Source: Armatimonadota bacterium (GTDB lineage Bacteria; Armatimonadota; UBA5829; DSUL01). Taken from it: a stretch of DNA of 64,000 nt. The notes beneath the pieces were generated by a model. It saw only the letters and a list, made by a program, of their open reading frames with translations. It was not told the DNA's origin and made no database searches. The DNA lies in assembly GCA_025998755.1 (NCBI GenBank), contig AP024674.1, positions 2,310,162 through 2,374,161 of the forward strand. The letters are read 5' to 3'. A program made the position numbers and the translations under genes. This document shows, one piece after another, positions 15,261-28,737 of the stretch; positions within the stretch are counted from its first letter, which is position 1, and the number at the start of each line of letters is the position of its first letter.

Positions 15261-15599
15261 GGTGACTTCTCCCTCTATTGAACGATCCAGATGCGAGGCG
15301 TCTTCAATCCAGCCACGCCATTGCTAGTCTAAACCCTGCGGGGTTCAGCACGGTTTTCGAGGAGTTGCGCTTTCGTCAAAGTTCGGTTGTTGGAGTGTCA
15401 AGGCGCTTTCCTGAGATGGCCGGGACTTTGCGGCGTTCTCCATCCTCACCGGCTGGGGTGGGATGTTTCGGTGATCGTGCTTATCTCGCAGGAGCAAACC
15501 TCCCCGTCACGCAGAAGGAAGCGGCGTCCGTTTCCTCGCGGCAGGACGGGCAGCGGCTCCGGCGTGTATAATGCCGAAAGAAGAAGGTCCGCCGGCTCG
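15261..15599. other. Divergent intergenic region before ispE
   Basis: The region separates the minus-strand paralogue from ispE. It contains a short AACCC/GGGTT hairpin near 15332-15345 and a TATAAT at 15567-15572 that could be the ispE -10 box, although no matching -35 hexamer is visible. Open frames running through it have no domain character. I see no RNA gene in it. Confidence 0.5.
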
Positions 15600-16457
15600 A
15601 TGACTCTGTCCCTCGTCTCCCCCGCCAAAATCAACCTCGCCCTGGATGTCGGGCATCGTCGCCCTGACGGGTATCACGACATCCGCACGGTGTTCTGTCG
15701 CATAGACCTTGCCGATGAGCTTGAGCTCACTCCGTCCGATCAGCCGGGCATCCGTCTCGTCGTGGAAGACGGAGACGCGCCGCTCGGACAAGCCAATCTG
15801 GCTGTGCAGGCGGCGGAGATGATCCGGCGCGAATGCGGCGCCGGCCAGGGACTGGAGATCCGCCTGCGCAAGCGGATTCCGATGCAGTCCGGCCTGGGCG
15901 GCGGGTCCTCCAACGCCGCGGCAGCGCTTCGTGGCGCGGCGGAGATCTTCGGCTACGCGGGCAAGCTGTCCGCCCTGGCCGACCTGTTGGGTTCGGACGT
16001 CCCGTTTTTTCTAAATGGGCGGATTGCTCTGGGCGAAGGAAAAGGGGAGCGCCTGCTCGAGATTCCCTCAAGTCTCTCCCTGCACTTCCTGATCGTCCGC
16101 CCGGATATCGGGGTCTCCACGGCGTGGGCATACGCGGAGCTGGACCGCTCCGGCGCTGGCGGAACGACCGGTTTTGCAGAGATGGCCGTCAGGGCGCTCC
16201 AGTCAGACGATCGCGACGCGTTGCTGACATCCCTGGGAAACAGCTTCGAGCCCGTCGTCTTCGCACGCCACCCAGAGATCGCCCGACTGAAGCAGAGGCT
16301 GCTGGAGGCGGGCGCGGAAGCCGCTCTGCTCTGCGGAAGCGGTAGTGCGGTGTTCGGCGTCTTCCCCACGCGGGACGCTGCGGAAGGCGCAGCATCCGGT
16401 TTCGGTGACGTGTGGAGGGCCGTCTCGTCCTCTACGCCGGAAGGGGGGCCCCCATGA
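15600..16457 (+). CDS. ispE: 4-diphosphocytidyl-2-C-methyl-D-erythritol kinase
   Basis: IspE phosphorylates CDP-methylerythritol in the MEP isoprenoid pathway. The 285-residue product has SPAKINLALDVGHRRPDGYH at the N-terminus, the GHMP-kinase ATP loop IPMQSGLGGGSSNAAAAL near residue 92, GSDVPFFLNG, and the C-terminal ALLCGSGSAVFGVF motif. All are hallmark IspE segments. The ATG at 15600 follows a TATAAT by 28 nt and an AAGAAGG purine stretch; a longer upstream frame is open but lies across the presumed promoter. Its stop overlaps the next start (ATGA), which puts it in one operon with the nucleotidyltransferase gene and dxs. Confidence 0.94.
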   Translation: MTLSLVSPAKINLALDVGHRRPDGYHDIRTVFCRIDLADELELTPSDQPGIRLVVEDGDAPLGQANLAVQAAEMIRRECGAGQGLEIRLRKRIPMQSGLGGGSSNAAAALRGAAEIFGYAGKLSALADLLGSDVPFFLNGRIALGEGKGERLLEIPSSLSLHFLIVRPDIGVSTAWAYAELDRSGAGGTTGFAEMAVRALQSDDRDALLTSLGNSFEPVVFARHPEIARLKQRLLEAGAEAALLCGSGSAVFGVFPTRDAAEGAASGFGDVWRAVSSSTPEGGPP

Positions 16458-17245
16458 CCGTCCCGGCGCTGGACTGTGTGGTGCTGGCCGGCGCACCGGC
16501 AGACGACAAACTGAAAGCAAGATACAATGTCAACTGGCGCGCCGAAGCTCCGCTGGCGGGTCGGAAAATGGCCGATCGTGTGCTGGATGCCCTGCGGGAC
16601 TCGGGCTGTATCCGCACCAGAATATTGGTGGGCGCTTTCCAGAGTGACGCCGAGGTGACCGTCCCGCCTGGCGACACCTTTCTGGAAAACCTGATGCGAG
16701 GGATGGAAGCGGCCGGCGAGGATGCGCAGATGGTGCTTGTGGCCAGCTCGGACATCCCGATGGTGAGTGGTCCGGCCATCCGCAGGCTTGTGGAGAAGGG
16801 ACTGTCGCTGGAGGCGGACTTCGTGTATCCCGTCATCCGGAAAGAAGACTGCGAGCGCAGCTATCCGGGTTTGAGACGCACCTATCTGCGTTTGCGGGAA
16901 GGGACGTTTACCGGCGGTAACGCCGTCCTGATAAACAGGCGCTTCGCGCTTCAGAACAGGGACAGGATTCAGGGAATTTATCAGGCGCGCAAGCAGCCTT
17001 TTCGCCTGGCCGCGATGATCGGGGTATCCACCCTGATCCGGGCAGTGGTTGCGCAGAAGCTCTGGCCGGGAGCGCTGGACATTGCCGCCGTGGAGCGGGC
17101 GGCGGAGCGGGCCATCGGCGGAAAGCTGCGGGCCCTTATCTGTCCGGATCCCGAGATCGGGGAGGATATGGACCGCCTGGAGGACATCCTGGTTGCGGAG
17201 CATCTGCTGGCCGAACGGGCCGCTGAAGGAGAACTGTCATCTTGA
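16454..17245 (+). CDS. MobA-like nucleotidyltransferase with atypical signature loop
   Basis: The 263-residue protein reads as a nucleotidyltransferase of the MobA/GlmU-like fold: VVLAG start, PLAGRKMADRVLDALRDSG (sugar or cofactor-binding helix), VLVASSDIPMVSG (the metal-binding DxP-type motif) and GGNAVLINRRF. The normal glycine-rich GGxGxRMG loop is replaced by AGAPADDKLKARY. It is not IspD, because the IspD landmarks are missing. Similar NTases sit beside ispE in some Clostridia, so the position between ispE and dxs may be meaningful. Start ATG 16454 overlaps the ispE stop by 4 nt, and its own stop overlaps the dxs TTG start. Substrate unknown. Confidence 0.75.
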   Translation: MTVPALDCVVLAGAPADDKLKARYNVNWRAEAPLAGRKMADRVLDALRDSGCIRTRILVGAFQSDAEVTVPPGDTFLENLMRGMEAAGEDAQMVLVASSDIPMVSGPAIRRLVEKGLSLEADFVYPVIRKEDCERSYPGLRRTYLRLREGTFTGGNAVLINRRFALQNRDRIQGIYQARKQPFRLAAMIGVSTLIRAVVAQKLWPGALDIAAVERAAERAIGGKLRALICPDPEIGEDMDRLEDILVAEHLLAERAAEGELSS

Positions 17246-19179
17246 CTGACGATATGAAGGGCGTGCTGGAGCGCATCAACAGCCCCGCCGACCTGAAGAG
17301 CCTGACGCCGCAGGAGCGGCGCATTCTTGCAGCCGAGATCCGGGAGACCATTCTGAATGTGGTCAGCAAGACCGGCGGGCACCTGGCCAGCAATCTGGGC
17401 ACCGTGGAGCTGACCATCGCCCTGCACACCGTCTGGGACGCCCCGAAAGACATCATCATCTTCGACACCGGCCATCAGGCCTATCCGCACAAGCTTCTGA
17501 CCGGCCGCCGCGACCAGTTCCATACCATCCGGCAGGGAGGCGGGCTTTCCGGCTTTCTGCGGCGCGAGGAGAGTCCTTACGACGTGTTCGGGGCCGGGCA
17601 CGCGGGAACGTCCATCTCGGCTGCGCTGGGGTTTGCCGAAGCGCGCGACCTGCGGGGCGGCGATGAAGAGGTGGTGGCGGTCATCGGCGATTCCGCCCTA
17701 ACAGCCGGAATGGCGCTGGAGGCTTTGAACCACGCCGGCGAGCTCAAGGCTAACATTAAGGTCATCCTGAACGACAACTCCATGTCCATCGCGCAGGCGG
17801 TGGGGGCGCTCTCTTACCATCTGGCCCGCCTGCGCAGCCAGCCGATCCTTCACAGCCTGGAGCAGAGGGCGAAGGATTTCATCCAGCATCTGAAAGTGGG
17901 CCGCAAAGCCATCGAGCATGCCGCCGAGGGTCTGAAGCTGGGCATGGCTCACCTGATGTCCCCGGGCGAGGGGCCCGTCTTCGAGAACCTGGGATTCACC
18001 TACCTCGGCCCCATCGATGGTCATAACACGGAGGAGCTGATCGAGATCTTCCGCGCCGTGCGCGAGATGAAGGAACCTGTCCTGGTGCACGTGGTCACCA
18101 CCAAGGGCAAGGGAGTGGAGTACGCCGAAAACGACGCGCGGGTGTTCCACGGGGTCACGCCGTTCGACACGGGATGCGGAAAGTTCCAGAAGAAGGAGGG
18201 CGGGAATCCCACCTGGACCAGCGGGTTTAGCCAGACCCTGCTGGAACTGGCGGAGGCGGATGAGCGCATCGTGGCCATCACGGCCGCCATGCCGGACGGC
18301 ACGGGGCTGGCCGCGTTCGCGGAGCGCTTCCCGGAACGGTTCTACGATGTGGCGATCGCGGAGCAGCACGCGGTGACCTTCGCCGCAGGGCTGGCGGCCT
18401 CAGGTCTGCGGCCGGTGGTGGCCATCTATTCCACGTTCCTCCAGCGCGCCTTCGACCAGGTGCTGCATGACGTGTGCATCCAGCATCTCCCCGTGATCTT
18501 CTGTCTGGACCGGGCGGGCCTTGTGGGAGACGATGGGGCCACCCATCAGGGTGTGTTCGACCTCTCGTATCTCCGGCTGATGCCGGGAATCGTGATCATG
18601 GCCCCATCCGATCTGCAGGAACTGGCGGACATGCTGCTGACCGCAGTCCAGCACGATGGCCCGATCGTGCTCCGGTATCCGCGTGGGCCGTGCCCTCGGC
18701 CCTGGGAAAAGCGCAAGCCGAGGCCCATACCCATCGGACGCGGAAGGACTCTGCGCGAGGGTTCGGATGTGGCGCTGGTGGCGTGTGGGAGCAGTGTCAT
18801 CACGGCAGAGGAGGCGGCGGATATGCTTCACGCCGATGGCATTTCGGCGGAAGTGATAGACGCGCGCTTCGTGAAGCCGCTCGATGAGCAGCGCATCTGC
18901 GCGGCCGCGCGCAAGTGCGGCAAGATGGTGGTGCTGGAGGAGAACGCCTTGGCCGGAGGGTTCGGCAGCGCGGTGCTGGAGCTGTTGTCTGTGGCAGCCC
19001 CGGAATGCAGGGTGTCGCGCGTGGGGGTTCCGGACCGCTTCTTGGAGCACGACAGCCAGCAGGCGCAGCGCAGAGAAGTGGGACTGACAGCAGAGCAGGT
19101 GGCGGAGCGGGCGCGGGAGCTGACAGGGACATCGCGCCAGCGCGATGCACGCGCTGTCGAACGCCCAGAACGCATCTGA
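17242..19179 (+). CDS. dxs: 1-deoxy-D-xylulose-5-phosphate synthase
   Basis: DXS condenses pyruvate and glyceraldehyde-3-phosphate with thiamine diphosphate and is the first step of the MEP pathway. The 645-residue product shows DTGHQAYPHKLLTGR, the ThDP motif GDSALTAGMALEALNHAG...NDNSMSI near residues 151-180, FENLGFTYLGPIDGHN, the transketolase-like DRAGLVGDDGATHQGVFDLS and the C-terminal VEVIDARFVKPLDE-like EVIDARFVKPLDEQRI. The TTG start shares bases with the previous stop and has AAGGAGAA 10 nt upstream, so it is preferred over ATG 17254. It follows ispE in the same operon. Confidence 0.97.
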   Translation: MTDDMKGVLERINSPADLKSLTPQERRILAAEIRETILNVVSKTGGHLASNLGTVELTIALHTVWDAPKDIIIFDTGHQAYPHKLLTGRRDQFHTIRQGGGLSGFLRREESPYDVFGAGHAGTSISAALGFAEARDLRGGDEEVVAVIGDSALTAGMALEALNHAGELKANIKVILNDNSMSIAQAVGALSYHLARLRSQPILHSLEQRAKDFIQHLKVGRKAIEHAAEGLKLGMAHLMSPGEGPVFENLGFTYLGPIDGHNTEELIEIFRAVREMKEPVLVHVVTTKGKGVEYAENDARVFHGVTPFDTGCGKFQKKEGGNPTWTSGFSQTLLELAEADERIVAITAAMPDGTGLAAFAERFPERFYDVAIAEQHAVTFAAGLAASGLRPVVAIYSTFLQRAFDQVLHDVCIQHLPVIFCLDRAGLVGDDGATHQGVFDLSYLRLMPGIVIMAPSDLQELADMLLTAVQHDGPIVLRYPRGPCPRPWEKRKPRPIPIGRGRTLREGSDVALVACGSSVITAEEAADMLHADGISAEVIDARFVKPLDEQRICAAARKCGKMVVLEENALAGGFGSAVLELLSVAAPECRVSRVGVPDRFLEHDSQQAQRREVGLTAEQVAERARELTGTSRQRDARAVERPERI

Positions 19180-19343: not shown

Positions 19344-19796
19344 ATGACAACGAGCGCCCAGAGCTACGTGAACGATCCCGTCGTCCTCACCTGGACGATC
19401 CATCGCCTGCGCGAGCGCCCTCAGATGCTCCTGCTCGTAATCCCTTGTCTGTTGTTGACCGGCTTTGCAGGAGCCCGGATGCTTGGCTCCCCTCTGGCGG
19501 GATTTCTGGCGGCCGGGCTGCTGGCGGCATCCATCGGGGACTATCTGTTCCCCGTGCGCTACGAGCTGCGCAGGCGCGCCGCGTCGGCAGCATGCCTCTT
19601 CAGCCGCCAGGAGATTCCCTGGGAGCGGGTGCGTTCGGTCTGGCTGTCGGAAGAGGGAGTGAAGCTGTCGCCGCTTCGCAGACCTTCGCGGATGGATGCG
19701 TTCCGCGGCGTGTTCCTGCGGTTCGGGCCGGAGCGGGAGCAGGTGATCGAGGCGGTGAAGCATCTGCGGGCGCGGGCGGCGGAGGCAGAGGAGTGA
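19344..19796 (+). CDS. Small membrane protein with PH-like C-terminal region
   Basis: This 150-residue protein has two hydrophobic segments (MLLLVIPCLLLTGFAGARML at about 28-47 and LAGFLAAGLLAASIGDYLF at about 51-69) followed by a soluble domain. That domain reads like the bacterial PH fold (RYELRRRAASAACLFSRQEI, PWERVRSVWLSEEGVKLSPL). No family was recognised with certainty. It opens a run of six closely coupled genes up to 23288; its stop TGA overlaps the next GTG start. No clear ribosome-binding site precedes ATG 19344, and the 165-nt gap after dxs has no terminator, so read-through from dxs is possible. Confidence 0.72.
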   Translation: MTTSAQSYVNDPVVLTWTIHRLRERPQMLLLVIPCLLLTGFAGARMLGSPLAGFLAAGLLAASIGDYLFPVRYELRRRAASAACLFSRQEIPWERVRSVWLSEEGVKLSPLRRPSRMDAFRGVFLRFGPEREQVIEAVKHLRARAAEAEE

Positions 19797-20092
19797 TTGA
19801 CCTGGCTTCTCCGCTCAGCCAGGAAGAAGCCGTTGAGATGGCGGAGGCAGTGGCCCGCCGGGTGGTCGGGATGGGGCTGTCCGTTCCCGCCATCCTGATG
19901 CTGGAGATGCACCGGCCCCTTTCGCGGCTGGCGGGGCAGGCGCTGGTGGCGGCGACGCCGGTGCTCGGACCGGCGCTCGGGGCGGGCGGGGTTCAGAAGC
20001 TTGCCCGCCTGCTCTATCACCCGGGAGGCATTGAGCTGATGATAAGCCGCATCGAAGAGCTCCGCGATGCGCAAAAGGAGGCGAGCCGTTGA
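19793..20092 (+). CDS. Short conserved-looking protein in the DUF6754 cluster
   Basis: The product is 99 residues long. It begins with the GTG at 19793 that overlaps the previous stop (GTGA) and follows a GCAGAGGA purine stretch. An N-terminal amphipathic helix is followed by GMGLSVPAILMLEMHRPLSR (a possible membrane-associated helix) and a glycine/alanine-rich segment with LLYHPGGIELMISRIEEL near the C-terminus. I do not recognise a family. The frame is open far upstream inside the preceding gene, but that part is a shadow of the neighbour. Its stop overlaps the TTG start of the DUF6754 gene. Confidence 0.7.
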   Translation: MIDLASPLSQEEAVEMAEAVARRVVGMGLSVPAILMLEMHRPLSRLAGQALVAATPVLGPALGAGGVQKLARLLYHPGGIELMISRIEELRDAQKEASR

Positions 20093-20871
20093 GCCACGCA
20101 ACGCTGCCGGTCCTGGTGTTCGAAAGCGTGATCGTGTTCTTCATCTTGTGGAAGATCCTCAGCGCGCGGCGCGGCAGGGAGCTTTACATTCGCAGGATCC
20201 CTGGTCTTTCGGCCATAGACGAGGCCGTCGGCCGCGCCACCGAGATGGGCCGGCCCATATTCTACTCCCCCGGCATACAGGGGCTGGACATTGTGGGGCT
20301 GCAGTCGCTCTCCATTCTGTCGCACATCATCAAACTGGCGGCCAAGTTCCGGACGCGGGTGATGGTGGCTCTGGCAGATGCTGTTCTGTATACCATCGCC
20401 CAGGACGTGGCACGGGAAGCGTATGCCCGGGAGGGAGCGCCCGAGCTGTACGAGCAGGACGACATCAAGTTCCTGTCAGACCAGCAGTTCGCATACGCTT
20501 CGGCGTCCATCGGGTTGATGTCGCGGGAGAGGGTGGCGAGCTGCTTCTACTTCGGGAGCTTCTTCGCGGAAGCTTTGATCCTTGCGGAGACGGGGCACCA
20601 CGTGGGCGCCATCCAGGTGGCGGGAACTCCGCAGATCACACAGCTTCCGTTCTTCATTGCGGCTTGCGACTACTGCATCATCGGAGACGAGTATTACGCT
20701 GGAAGCGCTTACCTCTCCAAGGAACCGACGCTCCTGGGCAGCCTGGTGGGGCAGGATCTGGGCAAGCTGGTCATCATCGCCGCGCTCATCGTCGGCGTCA
20801 TAGGAGTGAGCATCTCGCCGTGGGTCCCGGCAGGCTCCGTGGTGCTGGAGTGGTTCAAGGTGGGCAAGTAG
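20089..20871 (+). CDS. DUF6754-type membrane protein
   Basis: The 260-residue protein starts with a membrane helix (PVLVFESVIVFFILWKIL), then a long soluble region and a C-terminal helix (VIIAALIVGVIGVSISPWVP). The soluble part includes SPGIQGLDIVGLQSLSILSH, FGSFFAEALILAETGHHVGA, CDYCIIGDEYYAGSAYL and LVGQDLGKL, which I associate with the DUF6754 family of unknown function. The TTG start overlaps the upstream stop by 4 nt and has AAGGAG 8 nt upstream. A Cys-x2-Cys pair (CDYC) is noteworthy given the multihaem cytochrome encoded downstream. Function is not known. Confidence 0.75.
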   Translation: MSHATLPVLVFESVIVFFILWKILSARRGRELYIRRIPGLSAIDEAVGRATEMGRPIFYSPGIQGLDIVGLQSLSILSHIIKLAAKFRTRVMVALADAVLYTIAQDVAREAYAREGAPELYEQDDIKFLSDQQFAYASASIGLMSRERVASCFYFGSFFAEALILAETGHHVGAIQVAGTPQITQLPFFIAACDYCIIGDEYYAGSAYLSKEPTLLGSLVGQDLGKLVIIAALIVGVIGVSISPWVPAGSVVLEWFKVGK

Positions 20872-20873
20872 GG

Positions 20874-21761
20874 ATGGCTTCGTTCTGGGGACCGCATACG
20901 GATAATCCCGAGAAGACGCTCTTCATCCTGGGGGCGCTGGTCACGGGGGCGCTGTTCATCTTCGGGCTGACGTTCGTGCCGCGGCGGGCACGCAAGCCGC
21001 TCATCGCCGTGGTGACGTTCATCGGAGGACTGTACTTCAGCCTGGAGTTCCTCATCGCGCCTCGCTCTTCCGCCGAGCCGTTCCTGCTTTCCAAGGGAGC
21101 GTTCGGGAAAAAAGTGTTCGAGCTCCTCTACGCGGGACTGGACCCGGACCAGAACTTCCTCTCCCCCTATATGCAGGCCCTGACAAACGCCTGGCAGGTC
21201 ATCGCGGGCTTCACGTTCGCGCTGGGGCTGACCAACCTGGTGCACATCCACGGCAAGAACATCCTGCAGGGGCGGAAAAACTGGGGATTCAGCGTCTTCT
21301 TCTTCGTCGGCGTTATCGTGATGGCCGTCATCGGTTTCTTCCAGCGTTTCGGGGCGGGGCAGGACAGTGCGATCTGGCAGGGTCTCTGGAAGATCGCAAC
21401 GGATGGCTGGCTGTTCTCGCTGGACGCGGCGATGTTTTCGCTCATCGCGTTCTTCATCATCTCCGCCGCCTACCGCGCGTTCCGTATCCGCAGTGTGGAG
21501 GCGACCATCATGATGGGCGCAGCATTCCTGGTCATGCTGGGGCAGGTTCCGGTGGGCATCTGGTTGACCAGCTGGATCCAGCCTGAGTGGGGGTTCCTCC
21601 ACAACCTTCGGCTGGAGAACATCAGCCAGTGGATTCTGTGGAAGCCAAATGCGGCGGCGCAGCGGGGCATTGAGTTCGGGATCGCCGTGGGAGCGCTGGC
21701 GATGGGCCTGAGGATCTGGTTGTCGCTGGAGCGCGGCAGCTATTTCGAGAAGGAGGTTTAA
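20874..21761 (+). CDS. Seven-helix membrane protein in the DUF6754 cluster
   Basis: Translation from ATG 20874, 2 nt after the previous stop, gives 295 residues with about seven hydrophobic segments: LFILGALVTGALFIFGLTFV, LIAVVTFIGGLYFSLEFLI, WQVIAGFTFALGLTNLVHI, FSVFFFVGVIVMAVIGFF, AAMFSLIAFFIISAAYRAF, AAFLVMLGQVPVGIWL and GIEFGIAVGALAMGLRIWL. The in-frame extension upstream overlaps the DUF6754 gene and is a shadow. No family was recognised. Helix 3 carries HIHGKN at its end, which might bind a cofactor, but I see no haem-ligand pattern clear enough to call a cytochrome b. Confidence 0.78.
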   Translation: MASFWGPHTDNPEKTLFILGALVTGALFIFGLTFVPRRARKPLIAVVTFIGGLYFSLEFLIAPRSSAEPFLLSKGAFGKKVFELLYAGLDPDQNFLSPYMQALTNAWQVIAGFTFALGLTNLVHIHGKNILQGRKNWGFSVFFFVGVIVMAVIGFFQRFGAGQDSAIWQGLWKIATDGWLFSLDAAMFSLIAFFIISAAYRAFRIRSVEATIMMGAAFLVMLGQVPVGIWLTSWIQPEWGFLHNLRLENISQWILWKPNAAAQRGIEFGIAVGALAMGLRIWLSLERGSYFEKEV

Positions 21762-21765
21762 CCCG

Positions 21766-22599
21766 GTGAGCATCTTCGAACGGATGCAGCGCATCGACCG
21801 CCGGGTGATGTATGTCCTGCTGGTGGCGGTCATCGCTTTGCCGATGTTCGTCCCGTTCAAGTTGCCGACGGCCATCACGCCGGAAGTCAGGGGCGTCTAC
21901 GACGCAGTGGAGGCCATTCCGAAGGGGAAGCTGGCCATCCTTTCCGGAGACTGGGGCGCGGGAACGCTGGCCGAAAGCCTGCCCCAGACGGAAGCGCTGA
22001 TGCGCCATCTGTTCCGCAACAACGTGCCCTTCGCCATCCTGCCGTGGGCTCCCCAGACCACCACGCTGATGCAGAACACCGCGGAGCGCCTTGCGCCGGA
22101 GTATGGCAAGGTGTATGGCAGAGACTGGGTCAACTGGGGCTGGAAGGCCGTGCCGATGGTGGCCTTTTTGAAGTCCATGGCCAAGGACATTCCGGGCACC
22201 GTGCGACAGGACTACCGGGGGAGGCCCCTGTCCGAGCTGCCCGTCATGAAGGGCGTGAAGGACATTGACGACATCGGCTTCGTCTGCCACATCACGCCCG
22301 TCGGCAACATCATGCTGTGGGTGGCTTTCATTCAGGCCGTCTACGGCACCCCCATCGCATACGCGCCGACGGCTGTCATGGTGGCGCAGGGCTATGATCC
22401 TTTGGATGCCAAGCAGCTGGTCGGCATGCTGCCCGGACTGGTGGGTGGCGCGCAGTATGAGACGCTCCTGAACGACCCGCGCAGCGGCGTGCGATGGTCC
22501 AACTCACTTTCGCTGGCGGAGCTGTTGATGATCTTCCTCATCGTGCTGGCGAACATCGGCTACTTCGCGTCTCGGCGCGCCGGAGGATCCGGGCGATGA
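21766..22599 (+). CDS. Membrane-anchored protein with Rossmann-like extracytoplasmic domain
   Basis: The 277-residue product has a helix near the N-terminus (VMYVLLVAVIALPMFVPF) and one at the C-terminus (LAELLMIFLIVLANIGYFAS). Between them lies a domain with alternating strands and helices (KGKLAILSGDWGAGTLAESL, LFRNNVPFAILPWAP, GVKDIDDIGFVCHITPVGN), which may fold like a periplasmic-binding or Rossmann domain. No family was recognised. A GTG start 4 nt after the previous stop and an AGGAGG site at 21751-21756 support the call. Its stop overlaps the next ATG (ATGA). Confidence 0.76.
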   Translation: MSIFERMQRIDRRVMYVLLVAVIALPMFVPFKLPTAITPEVRGVYDAVEAIPKGKLAILSGDWGAGTLAESLPQTEALMRHLFRNNVPFAILPWAPQTTTLMQNTAERLAPEYGKVYGRDWVNWGWKAVPMVAFLKSMAKDIPGTVRQDYRGRPLSELPVMKGVKDIDDIGFVCHITPVGNIMLWVAFIQAVYGTPIAYAPTAVMVAQGYDPLDAKQLVGMLPGLVGGAQYETLLNDPRSGVRWSNSLSLAELLMIFLIVLANIGYFASRRAGGSGR

Positions 22600-23288
22600 A
22601 CGAAGCGCTGCAGCAGTTCTTCTCGAACCCGGAAGCGGTCCAGCGGGCGGTGGTCTGGTCCGGAGCTGTCTGCACCCTGGCCATCTACACGTTTCTGTAT
22701 CGGGAGAACGTGGTCTACCGCCTGTTCGAGCACTTCTATCTGGGGCTGGCGGTGGGCTACGGGCTGTTCCTCGTGGTCAGCGAGATCCTCATCCCCAAGT
22801 GGTGGGTGCCCATGTGGAACGAGGGGCGCTGGTGGTGGGCGTTTGCGCTGACAGGCGGGGCGATGTTCTATTTCGTCTACTCCCAGAAGCACAACTGGAT
22901 CAGCAGGCTGGCGTTCGGAGCGGTGATGGGCCTGGCGGTGGGTTGGATGTTCCAGGACTTCGCCGGTGCCAACTTCCCGAAGATCGCCGCAAGCCTGAAG
23001 CCCGTCGTCCCGCACGCGCCGGTGGGAGACAGCCCGGGACTGTCCGTATCGGGGGCGGTGAACAACGCCATTTTCCTGTTCGTGCTGCTCACGGTGATGA
23101 GCTATTTCTTCTTCAGCTTCGACTATGAGAAGCACAAAAGGGCGGCAAGGGCGGCGCAGATCGGCCGGTGGATGTTGATGCTGGGCTTCGGGGCGATGTT
23201 CGGAGCCACAGTGATGGCCAGGATGTCGCTTCTGATCGGCCGGCTCTGGTTCCTGCTGCATGACTGGCTGCGGGCGGTCAGTTTCTGA
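22596..23288 (+). CDS. Six-helix membrane protein in the DUF6754 cluster
   Basis: The 230-residue protein has about six hydrophobic helices: VVWSGAVCTLAIYTFLY, FYLGLAVGYGLFLVVSEIL, WWWAFALTGGAMFYFVYS, LAFGAVMGLAVGWMFQDF, AIFLFVLLTVMSYFFFSF, and a long last one around LMLGFGAMFGATVMARM. ATG 22596 overlaps the previous stop by 4 nt; the longer in-frame start would run back inside the neighbour. No family was recognised. With the three preceding genes it probably builds one membrane complex. Confidence 0.77.
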   Translation: MNEALQQFFSNPEAVQRAVVWSGAVCTLAIYTFLYRENVVYRLFEHFYLGLAVGYGLFLVVSEILIPKWWVPMWNEGRWWWAFALTGGAMFYFVYSQKHNWISRLAFGAVMGLAVGWMFQDFAGANFPKIAASLKPVVPHAPVGDSPGLSVSGAVNNAIFLFVLLTVMSYFFFSFDYEKHKRAARAAQIGRWMLMLGFGAMFGATVMARMSLLIGRLWFLLHDWLRAVSF

Positions 23289-23331
23289 GGTTGTAAAAGG
23301 CTCCGCCGGGGCGGACCGTACCAAAGGTCCA

Positions 23332-23361
23332 TTGAACGGGGTCTAACGGGTGAGGTATTCT
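23332..23361 (+). promoter_or_regulatory. Promoter for the multihaem cytochrome gene
   Basis: TTGAAC at 23332-23337 and TATTCT at 23356-23361 are spaced by 18 nt. The start point would be near 23368, leaving a leader of about 50 nt. The cytochrome gene may therefore be expressed both from this site and by read-through from the upstream operon. Confidence 0.55.
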
Positions 23362-23417
23362 GAAGTCAGGTTTGACGCGAGACCGGGTCCCGGCCCGGCG
23401 TGAAGGGGTCTGAAGAG

Positions 23418-24368
23418 ATGAGCCAGCCACGAAAGAACGCTCTCATCGGCGGGGCCGCCACACTGGCAGTCGCCGCCGCAGTGTTGACGGTGACGCATAT
23501 TGCGGTGGCTCAGCCGCCTGCGGATGCCACATACTCCGGCTCCAAACTGTGTGTCGTCTGCCATAAGGTGACCCATAAAGAGCTGGTGGAGGCGTTCGAG
23601 AAGACGGCGCACCCAAGAGCACTCCTGATGGCCTCGGACCAGGGGGCAATCGTTGCCGAGTTCGGCGATGATTGCCCGGTGAACAAGGAAGACATCCACA
23701 AGGTGCTCGGGGTCGGGAAGCGTTCGCAGGCGTACATCGGCAAAGACGGCAAGACCCTGCCGGGCAAGTGGTTTGTGAACGAGAAGCGCTGGAAGCCGCT
23801 TCAGGTGGTGGACGCCACGACCCAGTGCGTTCCCTGCCACGTGACGGGGTACGACCCGGCAAAGAAGACTTACAACGAGGCGGGCGTTCAGTGCGAAGCC
23901 TGCCACGGACCGGGCAGCGCCCACGCCACCACAGGCGACAAGACGAAGATTGGGCAGATCTCCACCCTGTCATTCGACAGGCAGGCCATGATCTGCGGCC
24001 GTTGCCACTCCGAAGGGACCAGCGTCAAGGATCCGAACTTCAAGCATCCCGTGGGGATGAAATGGGGAGACGATCTGAAGGAGTATCTAAAGCTGGCGGA
24101 GGTCAAGGGCCCGGGGATGAATCAGCAGTACAATGAATGGCTGCTCTCCAAGCACGCCACCAGCCAGGTCGGCTGCACCACGTGCCACGAGGTCCACGGC
24201 AAGGGCTCGGAGAATGTGGCTATGCTGAAGAAGCCCCAGAATGCCCTTTGTTTGGACTGCCACGCCGACGCGGTGGCCAAGCCAACTCATCCCCAGGTGC
24301 CGGACGGCGTAAAGTGCAGTCTCTGCCATATGCCCCAGGGAATGCACACATTCAAGATGGGGCAGTAA
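23418..24368 (+). CDS. Secreted multihaem cytochrome c (seven CxxCH motifs)
   Basis: The 316-residue protein has a signal peptide or anchor (ATLAVAAAVLTVTHIAVA) and seven haem c attachment motifs: CVVCH, CVPCH, CEACH, CGRCH, CTTCH, CLDCH and CSLCH. The order and the CEACHGPG segment recall cytochrome c-554-like and related periplasmic electron carriers. It probably passes electrons outside the cytoplasmic membrane. ATG 23418 is used here; a longer start six codons upstream is equally open. It follows the six-gene membrane cluster after 129 nt and a promoter, and is ended by a 15-bp hairpin. Cytochrome c maturation genes are not in the window. Confidence 0.9.
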   Translation: MSQPRKNALIGGAATLAVAAAVLTVTHIAVAQPPADATYSGSKLCVVCHKVTHKELVEAFEKTAHPRALLMASDQGAIVAEFGDDCPVNKEDIHKVLGVGKRSQAYIGKDGKTLPGKWFVNEKRWKPLQVVDATTQCVPCHVTGYDPAKKTYNEAGVQCEACHGPGSAHATTGDKTKIGQISTLSFDRQAMICGRCHSEGTSVKDPNFKHPVGMKWGDDLKEYLKLAEVKGPGMNQQYNEWLLSKHATSQVGCTTCHEVHGKGSENVAMLKKPQNALCLDCHADAVAKPTHPQVPDGVKCSLCHMPQGMHTFKMGQ

Positions 24369-24546: not shown

Positions 24547-25998
24547 TTGCTGAGTGTCCGTTGGTTTTTTGCGCTGATCCTAACGGGATTGTTCGTTCCG
24601 GCAGCCGCCGGCTCCGCGTCGGCTCAGCAGTCCCCGCCGGCTTCGTCCGCATCTGTAACTCCGCCGTCTGAAGCTGAGCGCGTCCCCGCCAGCCTGACGC
24701 TTCGCGACGCAGTCCGGATCAGCCTGCAGAACAACCCGCAGTTGAAGCAGGCGCGGGTTTCCTATCTGGCGGCACTTTCCGGGCTGGCGTCCGCGCGGGA
24801 TCTGGTGGACACATCGGTCTTTGCCGGCATCAGTCAGGCGTCCGTGGGCGGCGGGTCCGGAGAGACCGCTGCCGCAGCGGGTGCCCGGGTGGAGTGGCAG
24901 AGCCGGGCCGGAGACGCTCTCTCGGCGTCCCTGGTGCCTGCGGCCACCAGCGGAGCAACATCCAATCTGAGGTTGCACTACCGGCGTCCCCTTTCCCGCC
25001 AGAGCGGCGGACTGTCGCCCACGAATGTGAGCATCGTGTCCGCGGAACTGGCGCTGGCCGTGCAGGACAATACGTTCTGGCTGGCGCGCCAGGAGACCGC
25101 CGAAGCCACAGTGCGAGCTTATCTGAACGCAGTGCGCGCCCGAGATCTCATCAAAGTGAGTGAGGCGGATGTGGAGATCGCGCAGGAGACGGTGCGGATG
25201 GCCCGCAGGAGACTGGAAGAGGGGCTGGTGGCGGAGATAGAGCTTTCCCGCGCGGAGATCCGGCTGGCGCAGAGCCGTGACGCATTGATCGAGCGCCAGC
25301 GCGCCTACCGGGACGCTCTGGACGCGCTTCTCCTCGCAATGGGCCTTCCCGTGGGGCAGGAAACGGAGCTGGTGGACACGGCATCTGCGGAGCGCGCTGA
25401 GCTGGACTCACAGAAGCTGGTGGAAGAAGCGCTGGCGAACCGCCGGGACCTGAAAGCGCAACAGATCGCCATCCGCCGTCAGGAGCTGGACTACCGGGTG
25501 GCCGGCGACGACCTGCGGCCGTCGTTGGACGTGGTGGCTTCCTACACACGGGCCGGACTGGGACTGGCAGGGGGCGGGGACTTCCAGTCGCAGAGCTACT
25601 GGGCGGGCGGGCTTGAATACTCGCTGCCGATTGGGGCCGTCAGCCGCCGCGAGCGCAAGGAAACATCCCGCCGCAGCCTGGAGCAACTGAAAGTGGAGGA
25701 AGCCTTCCTGCGGGAGCGCATCACGAACGAGGTGCTCTCGGCCGTGCGCAGGCTGGAGGCGGTGGCCGCCACACTGGATATCTACTCCGCCAATCTGAAG
25801 GTGGCGCAGGACAACCTGGAGCTTGCGCGCCGGATGGTGGAGGAGGGCCTGGTGACCAACCGGGACATCCTGGAGGCGCAGGTGGCCCTCACCCAGACCC
25901 GCAGCAGCCTGCTTTCGGCGGAGATAGACTACTTCCTGGCACAGATCGCCCTGGAGCGGGCCGTGGGACGGGATCTGGCCGAACGTCTGGGCGGTTAG
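24547..25998 (+). CDS. TolC-family outer-membrane efflux protein
   Basis: The 483-residue protein has a signal peptide (FALILTGLFVPAAAGSASAQ) and two TolC-type repeats with long helical hairpins. Examples are LTLRDAVRISLQNNPQLKQA near residue 48 and the matching DNLELARRMVEEGLVTNRDI near residue 425. It would form the outer-membrane channel of a tripartite exporter with the HlyD-type adaptor and the MacB-type permease encoded next. The TTG start follows GGTGAGG. Its presence confirms a diderm envelope. The cargo cannot be told. Confidence 0.9.
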   Translation: MLSVRWFFALILTGLFVPAAAGSASAQQSPPASSASVTPPSEAERVPASLTLRDAVRISLQNNPQLKQARVSYLAALSGLASARDLVDTSVFAGISQASVGGGSGETAAAAGARVEWQSRAGDALSASLVPAATSGATSNLRLHYRRPLSRQSGGLSPTNVSIVSAELALAVQDNTFWLARQETAEATVRAYLNAVRARDLIKVSEADVEIAQETVRMARRRLEEGLVAEIELSRAEIRLAQSRDALIERQRAYRDALDALLLAMGLPVGQETELVDTASAERAELDSQKLVEEALANRRDLKAQQIAIRRQELDYRVAGDDLRPSLDVVASYTRAGLGLAGGGDFQSQSYWAGGLEYSLPIGAVSRRERKETSRRSLEQLKVEEAFLRERITNEVLSAVRRLEAVAATLDIYSANLKVAQDNLELARRMVEEGLVTNRDILEAQVALTQTRSSLLSAEIDYFLAQIALERAVGRDLAERLGG

Positions 25999-26006
25999 GG
26001 CGGACT

Positions 26007-27431
26007 ATGGAGATTGCAGAAGAGAGAAAGACGCTCCTGCGGCGCATACCCTTGCGGCGTCTGACCAGGCCGCTGATCATTCTTATCCTCTTTGCGGCCG
26101 CAGTTTGGGGCGGGGTGAAGGTTCTCCCGGCCCATTGGGCACGCTGGTTCCCGAAGGACAAAAAAGAGGTCTTCATCCCGACGGCTCAGGCGCGACGCGG
26201 AGAGCTGGTGGTCAGCGTCAAGCAGCTGGGCAGTGTCGAGGCAGAGAACAGCGTGCTGGTTTCCTCGGAGATCGATGGCAAAATCATCTACCTGGTGCCC
26301 GAGGGTCGGACGGTCTCCCCGGGTGAGCTACTGGTCCAGTTCGACGACACACCCCTGCGCGAGGCGGTCAGGACTGCCACGCTGGAGTATAACAATGCGC
26401 TGGCGCAGGTGGAAAAAGCTAAGCTGGAACTCGAGATCCAGAAAGAGTCCAATCGCACCGAGGTGGAGCAGCAGGAGGCCCAACTGAACTTCGACCGCGC
26501 CGAGCTGGAACGGGCTCAGGCGCAGCTGGAGAAGAAGAAGCGCCTTGCCTCGGACCGCCTGATCCCGCAGTCGGAGGTGGAGGTAGCCGAGATTGACGTC
26601 CGCAGCAAGCAGTTCAACGTCACCAAGCAGGAGAAGGCGCTTGCCCTGAAGCGCAAGGAGGTGGAGAGCCGGGAGAGTCAGAAGCAGGCGGACGTCCGCA
26701 ACGTGGAGTTCTCCGCTCAGATGGCCCGGATGCGCCTGCGGGAGGCCGAGGGACGTTTGAAAAAGAGCCGCCTCCTTGCTCCGAAGGGGGGCCTTGTGGT
26801 CATCCAGAAGACCTGGACCCCGGACGGAAGGCGCAAGTTCAAGGAAGGTGACTCGGTCTATCCGCGCCAGGAGATCCTGCAACTGCCAGATCTCTCCAGC
26901 ATGCTGGTGAAGGCTCAGGTGGAAGAGGCGGACATTGCGCGGGTGAAGGTGGGGCAGAGTGTGCGTCTCACCCTGGACGCCCTGCCCGGCAAGACCTATA
27001 CCGGAGTGGTGCGCGAGATCTCCAGTCTGGCCACGGAGGCGTCACCCTGGGAGACATCCGGCACGCCCGGCCGCAAGAACTTCGAGGTGACCATCAAGAT
27101 CAACACTTCGGGAATCTCCCCCATCCGGCCGGGAATGACCGCCAACGTGGAGATCATCTCAGACCGCGTGACGGACACGGTGTATGTTCCCATCGAGGCT
27201 GTTTTCGAGAAGGAGGGGAAGAGACTGGTCTACGTGAAGCGGGGAGCTTCTTTCGTGGCAAGGGAGGTGGAGACGGGAAAGCGGAACGAGACGTTCGTGT
27301 CCATCCGCAAAGGTCTGAGGGGGGGCGAGGTGGTGGCGCTGAAGGATCCGACGCGTCAGCAGCCCACTCCCCGGCAGGACGAGAAGCCGGCGGCGCTTCC
27401 CGTGCCCACTCCTGCGAAGGCAAAAAGCTGA
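26007..27431 (+). CDS. HlyD/MacA-type periplasmic adaptor with long coiled coil
   Basis: An N-terminal membrane helix (PLIILILFAAAVWGGVKVL) is followed by a biotinyl-lipoyl-like domain (EIDGKIIYLVPEGRTVSPGE). A long Glu/Lys/Arg-rich coiled coil occupies about residues 125-250 (EVEQQEAQLNFDRAELERAQ, KRKEVESRESQKQADVRNVE). Then come a beta-barrel domain (KVGQSVRLTLDALPGKTYTG) and a membrane-proximal domain (VYVPIEAVFEKEGKRLVYVK). This is the layout of membrane-fusion proteins that bridge an inner-membrane pump to TolC. It is 474 residues long and lies 8 nt after the TolC gene and 4 nt before the permease gene. Confidence 0.9.
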   Translation: MEIAEERKTLLRRIPLRRLTRPLIILILFAAAVWGGVKVLPAHWARWFPKDKKEVFIPTAQARRGELVVSVKQLGSVEAENSVLVSSEIDGKIIYLVPEGRTVSPGELLVQFDDTPLREAVRTATLEYNNALAQVEKAKLELEIQKESNRTEVEQQEAQLNFDRAELERAQAQLEKKKRLASDRLIPQSEVEVAEIDVRSKQFNVTKQEKALALKRKEVESRESQKQADVRNVEFSAQMARMRLREAEGRLKKSRLLAPKGGLVVIQKTWTPDGRRKFKEGDSVYPRQEILQLPDLSSMLVKAQVEEADIARVKVGQSVRLTLDALPGKTYTGVVREISSLATEASPWETSGTPGRKNFEVTIKINTSGISPIRPGMTANVEIISDRVTDTVYVPIEAVFEKEGKRLVYVKRGASFVAREVETGKRNETFVSIRKGLRGGEVVALKDPTRQQPTPRQDEKPAALPVPTPAKAKS

Positions 27432-27435
27432 AGAC

Positions 27436-28737
27436 GTGAGCGTCTGGCAGTCAATTCTCAGCGGGTTGCAGGAGCTGCTGGCGCACAAGCTGCGCTCGTT
27501 TCTCACCATGCTGGGCGTCATCTTCGGAGTGGCGGCCGTCATCGCGATGGTCTCCATCGGCGAGGGAGCGCGCAGGGAAGCGATGGAGCAGCTCAGGCTT
27601 CTGGGGGTGGACGTGGTACGCGTGATGCGAAAGCCGCTGGCCGGAGCGGCCCTGGAGAAGGCGCAGGAGAAGTCCCCCCACGGGCTGAACTACGGCGACG
27701 CGCTGGCCGCGCGTCAGATTCTGAAATACGCCACGCGCGTGGTGGCGGTGAGGCAGGTGCAGGCTGAGCTGGGAGTGGAAGGCGCACCCGTCTCTGTCCG
27801 GGTTCTGGGAGCCTCCCCGGGGCTGCCTGAAGTCACGCGCAGCGAGATCGCCCGGGGACGATTCCTGACGGATGAGGACGAGCAAAAAGCGGCGCGCGTC
27901 TGCGTGCTGGGATCGGGAATCCGGCGCAGACTTTTCGGTTTCGAGGACCCCATTGGAAAGACCATCAAGCTCTCCGGCATCCCGTTCACGGTGGTGGGAG
28001 CGATCGCCGAGAAGGTCATTCCAGCAAAGACCGTGGTCGAGATTCCTGATCAAAACTTTGACATCTATATACCTATCACGGTCTCCATCCGCACCTTCCT
28101 GATGTACTCGGAGCAGCCCGTCCCCTCCAACGTGCGCGCGGTTGTCCAGACGCTGAGGGCTATGACCGCAAAACAGGCTCTGGAGGTCAGTCCGGTAAGC
28201 GCCATCATCATCCAGTCTGGCTCGGAGGCAGCCGCGCCGGAGACCGCCCAGATCCTGGACCGGATGCTGAAGCGCAGGCATCGAGGGGTGGACGACTACA
28301 CCATAGAAGTGCCTGCGGAGCTCATTCGGCAGAGCCAGGAGACGCAGCGGGTGTTCAACATCGTGATGGGGGCGATCGCGGGCATCTCTCTGGTGGTGGG
28401 CGGCATCGGCATCATGAACATCATGCTGGCCACCGTCACGCAACGCACGCGGGAGATCGGCATCCGCCGGTGCGTGGGAGCCACACGAGGCGACGTGCTC
28501 CGTCAGTTCCTGCTGGAGGCGCTGGTCATCACAGTGCTGGGCGGGTTGATTGGGGTAGCGCTCGGGGTGGGAGGGGCCACCGCAATCTCGCAATACGCGG
28601 GATGGACCACGGTGGTCAGTGTGCAGGCTATCCTGCTGAGCCTGTTCGTGGCGAGCGCCGTGGGGGTGATCTTCGGGCTGTATCCGGCCGTGCGTGCAGC
28701 CTACGTGGATCCCATCACGGCCCTGCGCTATGAGTAA
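27436..28737 (+). CDS. MacB/FtsX-type ABC transporter permease (no ATPase domain)
   Basis: The 433-residue protein matches the MacB permease layout: an N-terminal helix (KLRSFLTMLGVIFGVAAVIA), a large periplasmic MacB-PCD domain (about 50-300), and three C-terminal FtsX helices starting with GIGIMNIMLATVTQRTREIG. The GARRxxEIGIRRxxGA-type segment (GIRRCVGATRGDVLRQFLLE) is conserved. Unlike canonical MacB it has no N-terminal ATPase, and no ATPase gene is adjacent. The partner must be encoded elsewhere. The GTG start lies 4 nt after the adaptor stop; the 3' end overlaps the hydrolase start by 8 nt. Confidence 0.9.
   Translation: MSVWQSILSGLQELLAHKLRSFLTMLGVIFGVAAVIAMVSIGEGARREAMEQLRLLGVDVVRVMRKPLAGAALEKAQEKSPHGLNYGDALAARQILKYATRVVAVRQVQAELGVEGAPVSVRVLGASPGLPEVTRSEIARGRFLTDEDEQKAARVCVLGSGIRRRLFGFEDPIGKTIKLSGIPFTVVGAIAEKVIPAKTVVEIPDQNFDIYIPITVSIRTFLMYSEQPVPSNVRAVVQTLRAMTAKQALEVSPVSAIIIQSGSEAAAPETAQILDRMLKRRHRGVDDYTIEVPAELIRQSQETQRVFNIVMGAIAGISLVVGGIGIMNIMLATVTQRTREIGIRRCVGATRGDVLRQFLLEALVITVLGGLIGVALGVGGATAISQYAGWTTVVSVQAILLSLFVASAVGVIFGLYPAVRAAYVDPITALRYE

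Follow-up and report, generated by a model that had tools for sequence, protein, structure and literature searches.

What do six tightly packed plus-strand genes (A–F, 19344–23288), followed by a cytochrome gene (G, 23418–24368), do for a bacterium of the Armatimonadota? They lie in a stretch of 64,000 nucleotides, the window of this study, which is part of a single 3.29 Mb contig. In a scan of genome contigs with protein E, Armatimonadetes alone gave matches; they are the nearest named relatives of the window. The original prediction had read the locus as a possible new membrane complex for electron transfer, which would donate electrons to the cytochrome or accept them from it. Our analysis upholds a conserved unit that belongs to no described family apart from the DUF6754 protein C, whereas neither a role in electron transfer nor a connection with the cytochrome held up.

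The gene list itself was right, i.e., six coupled genes and then a cytochrome with seven CxxCH motifs, and hydropathy agreed with the topology proposed earlier. Gene A (19344–19796, 150 aa) is an open reading frame for a small membrane protein with two transmembrane (TM) segments and a possible PH-like domain. B (19793–20092, GTG start) encodes about 99 residues, probably soluble and helical. C (20089–20871, TTG start, 260 aa) is a membrane-anchored protein with TM segments at both ends, D (20868–21761, starting with GTG at 20868 or ATG at 20874) has about six TM segments, and in E (21766–22599, GTG start) TM segments flank a soluble domain on both sides, with one weak segment in addition. F (22596–23288, ATG start) is multi-spanning with three long segments. 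The positive-inside rule predicts a cytosolic location for the soluble domain of C and an extracytoplasmic one for that of E. The A/B, B/C and E/F junctions each overlap by 4 nt, D and E are 4 nt apart, and C/D is either a 4 nt overlap (GTG start) or a 2 nt gap (ATG start). G begins at ATG 23418 or GTG 23400, which leaves 111–129 nt behind F; for B, C, D and G the start codon was picked by eye. Upstream of A, at a distance of 165 nt, an ispE-like kinase, a MobA-like nucleotidyltransferase and dxs stand in a row (15387–19179), an arrangement not recurrent in relatives.

We assessed conservation in a sample of 151 Armatimonadota genomes and 14 control genomes. Of the phylum genomes, 129 contained C and 131 contained E, and DUF6754 occurred in none of the 14 controls. 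For gene order, 60 loci were fetched and analyzed together with the window (61 in total), searching their reading frames with iterated profiles. The order found in the window recurs phylum-wide: rather than occurring separately in relatives, C-D-E-F are consecutive on one strand in 57/61 loci (31/34 families), and the full A–F order is kept in 46 loci (27 families). Relatives of A were found in 51 fetched loci, and B is kept in 54. For comparison, the surroundings of the operon were checked for other recurrent gene families, and none was shared by more than 13 loci. C and H, a partner described below, were not found on plasmids, nor was C on viral contigs. Tandem copies exist of C (L065, L068) and of E (L078) and would fit hetero-oligomers.

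In four families (f23, f28, f29, f32), two further genes, here called M and H, stand between B and C. The order A-B-M-H-C-D-E-F was seen in six loci and A-B-C-D-E-F-M-H in one (L084). Moreover, M-H precede a second C-D-E-F copy in L083, M alone lies downstream of F in L099, and genome G009 has A-B with M at one site and H with C-D-E-E-F at another. In many genomes, M-H are encoded away from the operon. The window genome is among them, with the two genes adjacent at G000:C1:475524-478424, 1.83 Mb from the operon; there they are preceded by an AcrB-type RND gene and a gene for a 96-aa PII-like or CutA-like protein (L128:4740-8405, G000:C1). M has about 600 aa and a match to PF13941 (MutL/GlmL) that spans the entire profile (E 1.4e-128, 429.9 bits against a cut-off of 27), and its ASKHA phosphate-1, phosphate-2 and adenosine motifs, DxGSTxTK, DIGGATTD and GSGG, are invariant. 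H, of about 372 aa, contains a biotinyl/lipoyl-like stretch (PF00364, 26.7 bits, cut-off 22.1) that also resembles the N-terminal barrel-sandwich of RnfC/NqrA, with scores below cut-off for both RnfC_N (24.7 vs 25.6 bits) and NQRA_N (19.5 vs 25 bits). Unlike these domains, H shows neither an acceptor lysine conserved within AES.SFFGLF (alignment A9) nor an Fe-S or flavin motif. Outside the barrel-sandwich stretch, H matches nothing.

Where M-H are part of the operon, C has an extra exported N-terminal part (L113:8098-9369, L112:8178-9482, L098, L095, L096, L090), with a fibronectin type III domain detected in L113. This added part of C was found in four families and lies ahead of the TM segment; an exported part at this position fits an N-terminus on the outside.

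Co-inheritance was evaluated in 116 good genomes, i.e., those at least 90% complete and at most 5% contaminated. C and E were both missing in 11 of them. In searches that covered B–F, M and H, eight of these (G004, G007, G019, G045, G057, G104, G114, G126) also lacked B, D, F, H and full-length M; G104 gave one weak PF13941 match (E 7.8e-5). The other three (G023, G055, G106; 440–1060 contigs) had M and H and lacked B–F, for which missing contigs could account in such fragmented assemblies. No good genome had C without H (Fisher p = 2.6e-10, a value overstated owing to kinship among the genomes). A small tree built from five ribosomal proteins put the genomes without the system at three positions: f9 together with f26 (support 0.945), one subclade within f11 (0.990), and G104 (1.000), whose sister G009 has it. 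The f11 subclade and G104 are clear losses on this tree, while the case of f9 with f26 depends on the root. A co-inherited set that is present in most of the phylum (C in 129/151) and has no characterized relative probably serves a core cell function that is as yet unnamed. The naturally lacking lineages, together with cultured members of the phylum, make the system testable.

Gene order and co-occurrence support one functional unit in which membrane proteins are joined by a probable ATPase in the cytosol and a protein that resembles an adaptor, and since the unit is conserved and fits no described family apart from DUF6754, an undescribed membrane complex is likely. With moderate confidence we propose that A–F are the membrane part of an eight-protein system, to which M and H would belong although they lie outside the window, and that this system drives movement or assembly of an envelope component with ATP. 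In ASKHA proteins such as Hsp70, actin and reactivases, nucleotide binding leads to large domain movements; we therefore favor an ATP-driven inner-membrane complex in which C, M and H would face the cytosol and E the outside. M would hydrolyze ATP and H would connect it with C through the latter's cytosolic domain. The core in the inner membrane would consist of C, D and F; E would pass the effect to the extracytoplasmic side, and A and B may act as regulators or assembly helpers. The role in transport or envelope assembly, suggested by topology and analogy, is perhaps the right one. More tentatively, the set may represent an undescribed class of inner-membrane machine and a core feature of the phylum; an ASKHA-fold, GlmL-type ATPase would power it via a barrel-sandwich adaptor, and it would act across the membrane through the cytosolic domain in C and the extracytoplasmic, Rossmann-like one in E. 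M-H may also serve another purpose besides the operon system, as they are present without A–F in G023, G055 and G106 and are often unlinked. The arrangement hints that the GlmL/MutL family has a second branch, linked to the membrane and unrelated to mutases, and it gives DUF6754 a genomic context.

Could A–F instead be an envelope lipid or glycan enzyme complex, in which a lipid-linked substrate is carried by D and F, C and E provide enzyme domains on either side and M-H control or power the reaction? Its appeal lies in the Rossmann-like domain of E, the multi-spanning D and F, and the isoprenoid genes (ispE-like, dxs) just upstream in the window genome. We consider it unlikely: these upstream genes do not recur in relatives, and no enzyme family was matched. 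C is a full DUF6754 member, as its likeness had suggested (PF20539, E 1.6e-96, 322.9 bits against the Pfam gathering cut-off of 27), a family that itself has no assigned function; a literature search gave no mention of DUF6754, including partners or gene order. For the other membrane-operon proteins the earlier failure to assign a family was borne out, i.e., A, B, D, E and F had no Pfam or NCBIfam match above cut-off. When every aligned relative of these five was scanned against Pfam, nothing consistent emerged except for A, where 5 of the 24 relatives gave a weak bPH_6 match (best E 5e-4) and the window copy gave none. NCBIfam and PADLOC scans of A–F gave no match, and no PADLOC model for anti-phage defence matched A–F, M or H. 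Profiles of A, C, D, E, F, M and H produced only chance-level matches against PDB sequences.

Structure modeling relied on alignments of three to four rows. The C model was of low confidence and too poor for a fold search. For E, a partial model showed a Rossmann-like α/β domain at residues ~80–170 (pLDDT 76–95), and its comparison with solved structures returned generic α/β matches alone (best Foldseek E 0.011, best Z 8.2). The extracytoplasmic Rossmann-like domain originally described for E is thus modeled in part and its outside placement predicted, whereas the fold matches remain generic. The match of D to MraY was at chance level (E 0.011). Profile comparison spoke against C and E (probability 2%) and against D and F (0.2%) as paralogues.

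A second alternative takes M as a protein that, like GlmL, reactivates or chaperones a cofactor enzyme, with C and E as this enzyme or its membrane anchor. M is indeed a PF13941 family member, with a full-length match and the ASKHA motifs, and the NCBIfam name describes GlmL as an accessory protein of a B12-dependent mutase. M, however, stays below all three NCBIfam cut-offs (GlmL, Or-4 and GlmL-family; NF040745, NF040744, TIGR01319), scoring 235 bits with the equivalog model for GlmL, the accessory protein of methylaspartate mutase, which requires 475. In contrast to the GlmL/MutL family, it is ~120–140 aa longer at the C-terminus and is linked to membrane genes and no mutase. Moreover, no cofactor-enzyme family recurs beside the operon, and true GlmL-type copies exist separately in G063 and G055; we hence regard this explanation as distinctly improbable. 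A literature search on GlmL yielded nothing relevant. The G063 copy (L147, G063:C620:4203-5564) encodes a 464-aa protein whose PF13941 match is much stronger (E 3e-171); it is probably a genuine GlmL, and that genome has its M gene elsewhere.

The gene set is split in some genomes (L100, L105, L110), as would be expected if A–F were separate housekeeping genes that share an operon and form no common complex. Against this stand the all-or-none absence in three lineages and the retention of the parts after splitting, which leave it with very little probability.

Least credible of all is the complex first proposed, i.e., one exchanging electrons with cytochrome G, which we rejected on synteny, orthologue placement and motifs, even though G follows F in three f1 genomes and H shows a weak RnfC/NqrA-like barrel-sandwich match below cut-off. 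G is predicted to be exported, has seven CxxCH motifs and matches domains of multihaem cytochromes c (C554, paired CXXCH, GSU2203-like); its best solved sequence match is 6qvm. It differs from them in scoring below the NCBIfam equivalog cut-offs and in having no operon link elsewhere in the class. G adjoins the operon in family f1 alone (the window genome, G095 and G152), and no multihaem gene lies near the operon in the remaining loci outside f1. Orthologues elsewhere in the class (40–47% identity) stand apart from it. Their neighbors, named by reading their sequences, are ResB/CcsA-like and hemA-like genes (L159, L160, L164), biotin genes (L162) or phosphate-transport genes (L166). As G adjoins the operon in f1 alone and has orthologues elsewhere, it is a lineage-specific neighbor and not part of the system, contrary to the set as first drawn.

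The motifs pointed in the same direction. Alignments of A–F contained no conserved CxxC, CxxCH, flavinylation, Fe-S or bis-His signature; at the level of at least 90% conservation, we found at most one His each in D, E and F, and C has one conserved Cys. The CDYC pair noted earlier in C does not qualify as a redox pair, since its second Cys occurs in 1 of 31 sequences and is private to the lineage of the window. Membership in the Rnf/Nqr complexes is not indicated, with RnfC_N and NQRA_N below cut-off for H and no flavinylation or Fe-S motifs. The membrane subunits likewise lack the His pairs, CxxCH motifs and Cys clusters of haem or Fe-S respiratory complexes. Electron transfer is therefore an unlikely job for the system.

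Three further observations concern the cytochrome and its surroundings. The orthologue of G in the sister genus (L002:11670-12665, G095) has six CxxCH motifs, one site reading LIPKH instead of CVPCH. Adjacent reading frames with 11 and 28 CxxCH motifs at L163:9463-12283 (G119) form a large multihaem cluster. Downstream of G in the window, TolC-like, HlyD-like and MacB-like genes (24547–28737) make up a tripartite efflux-type cluster.
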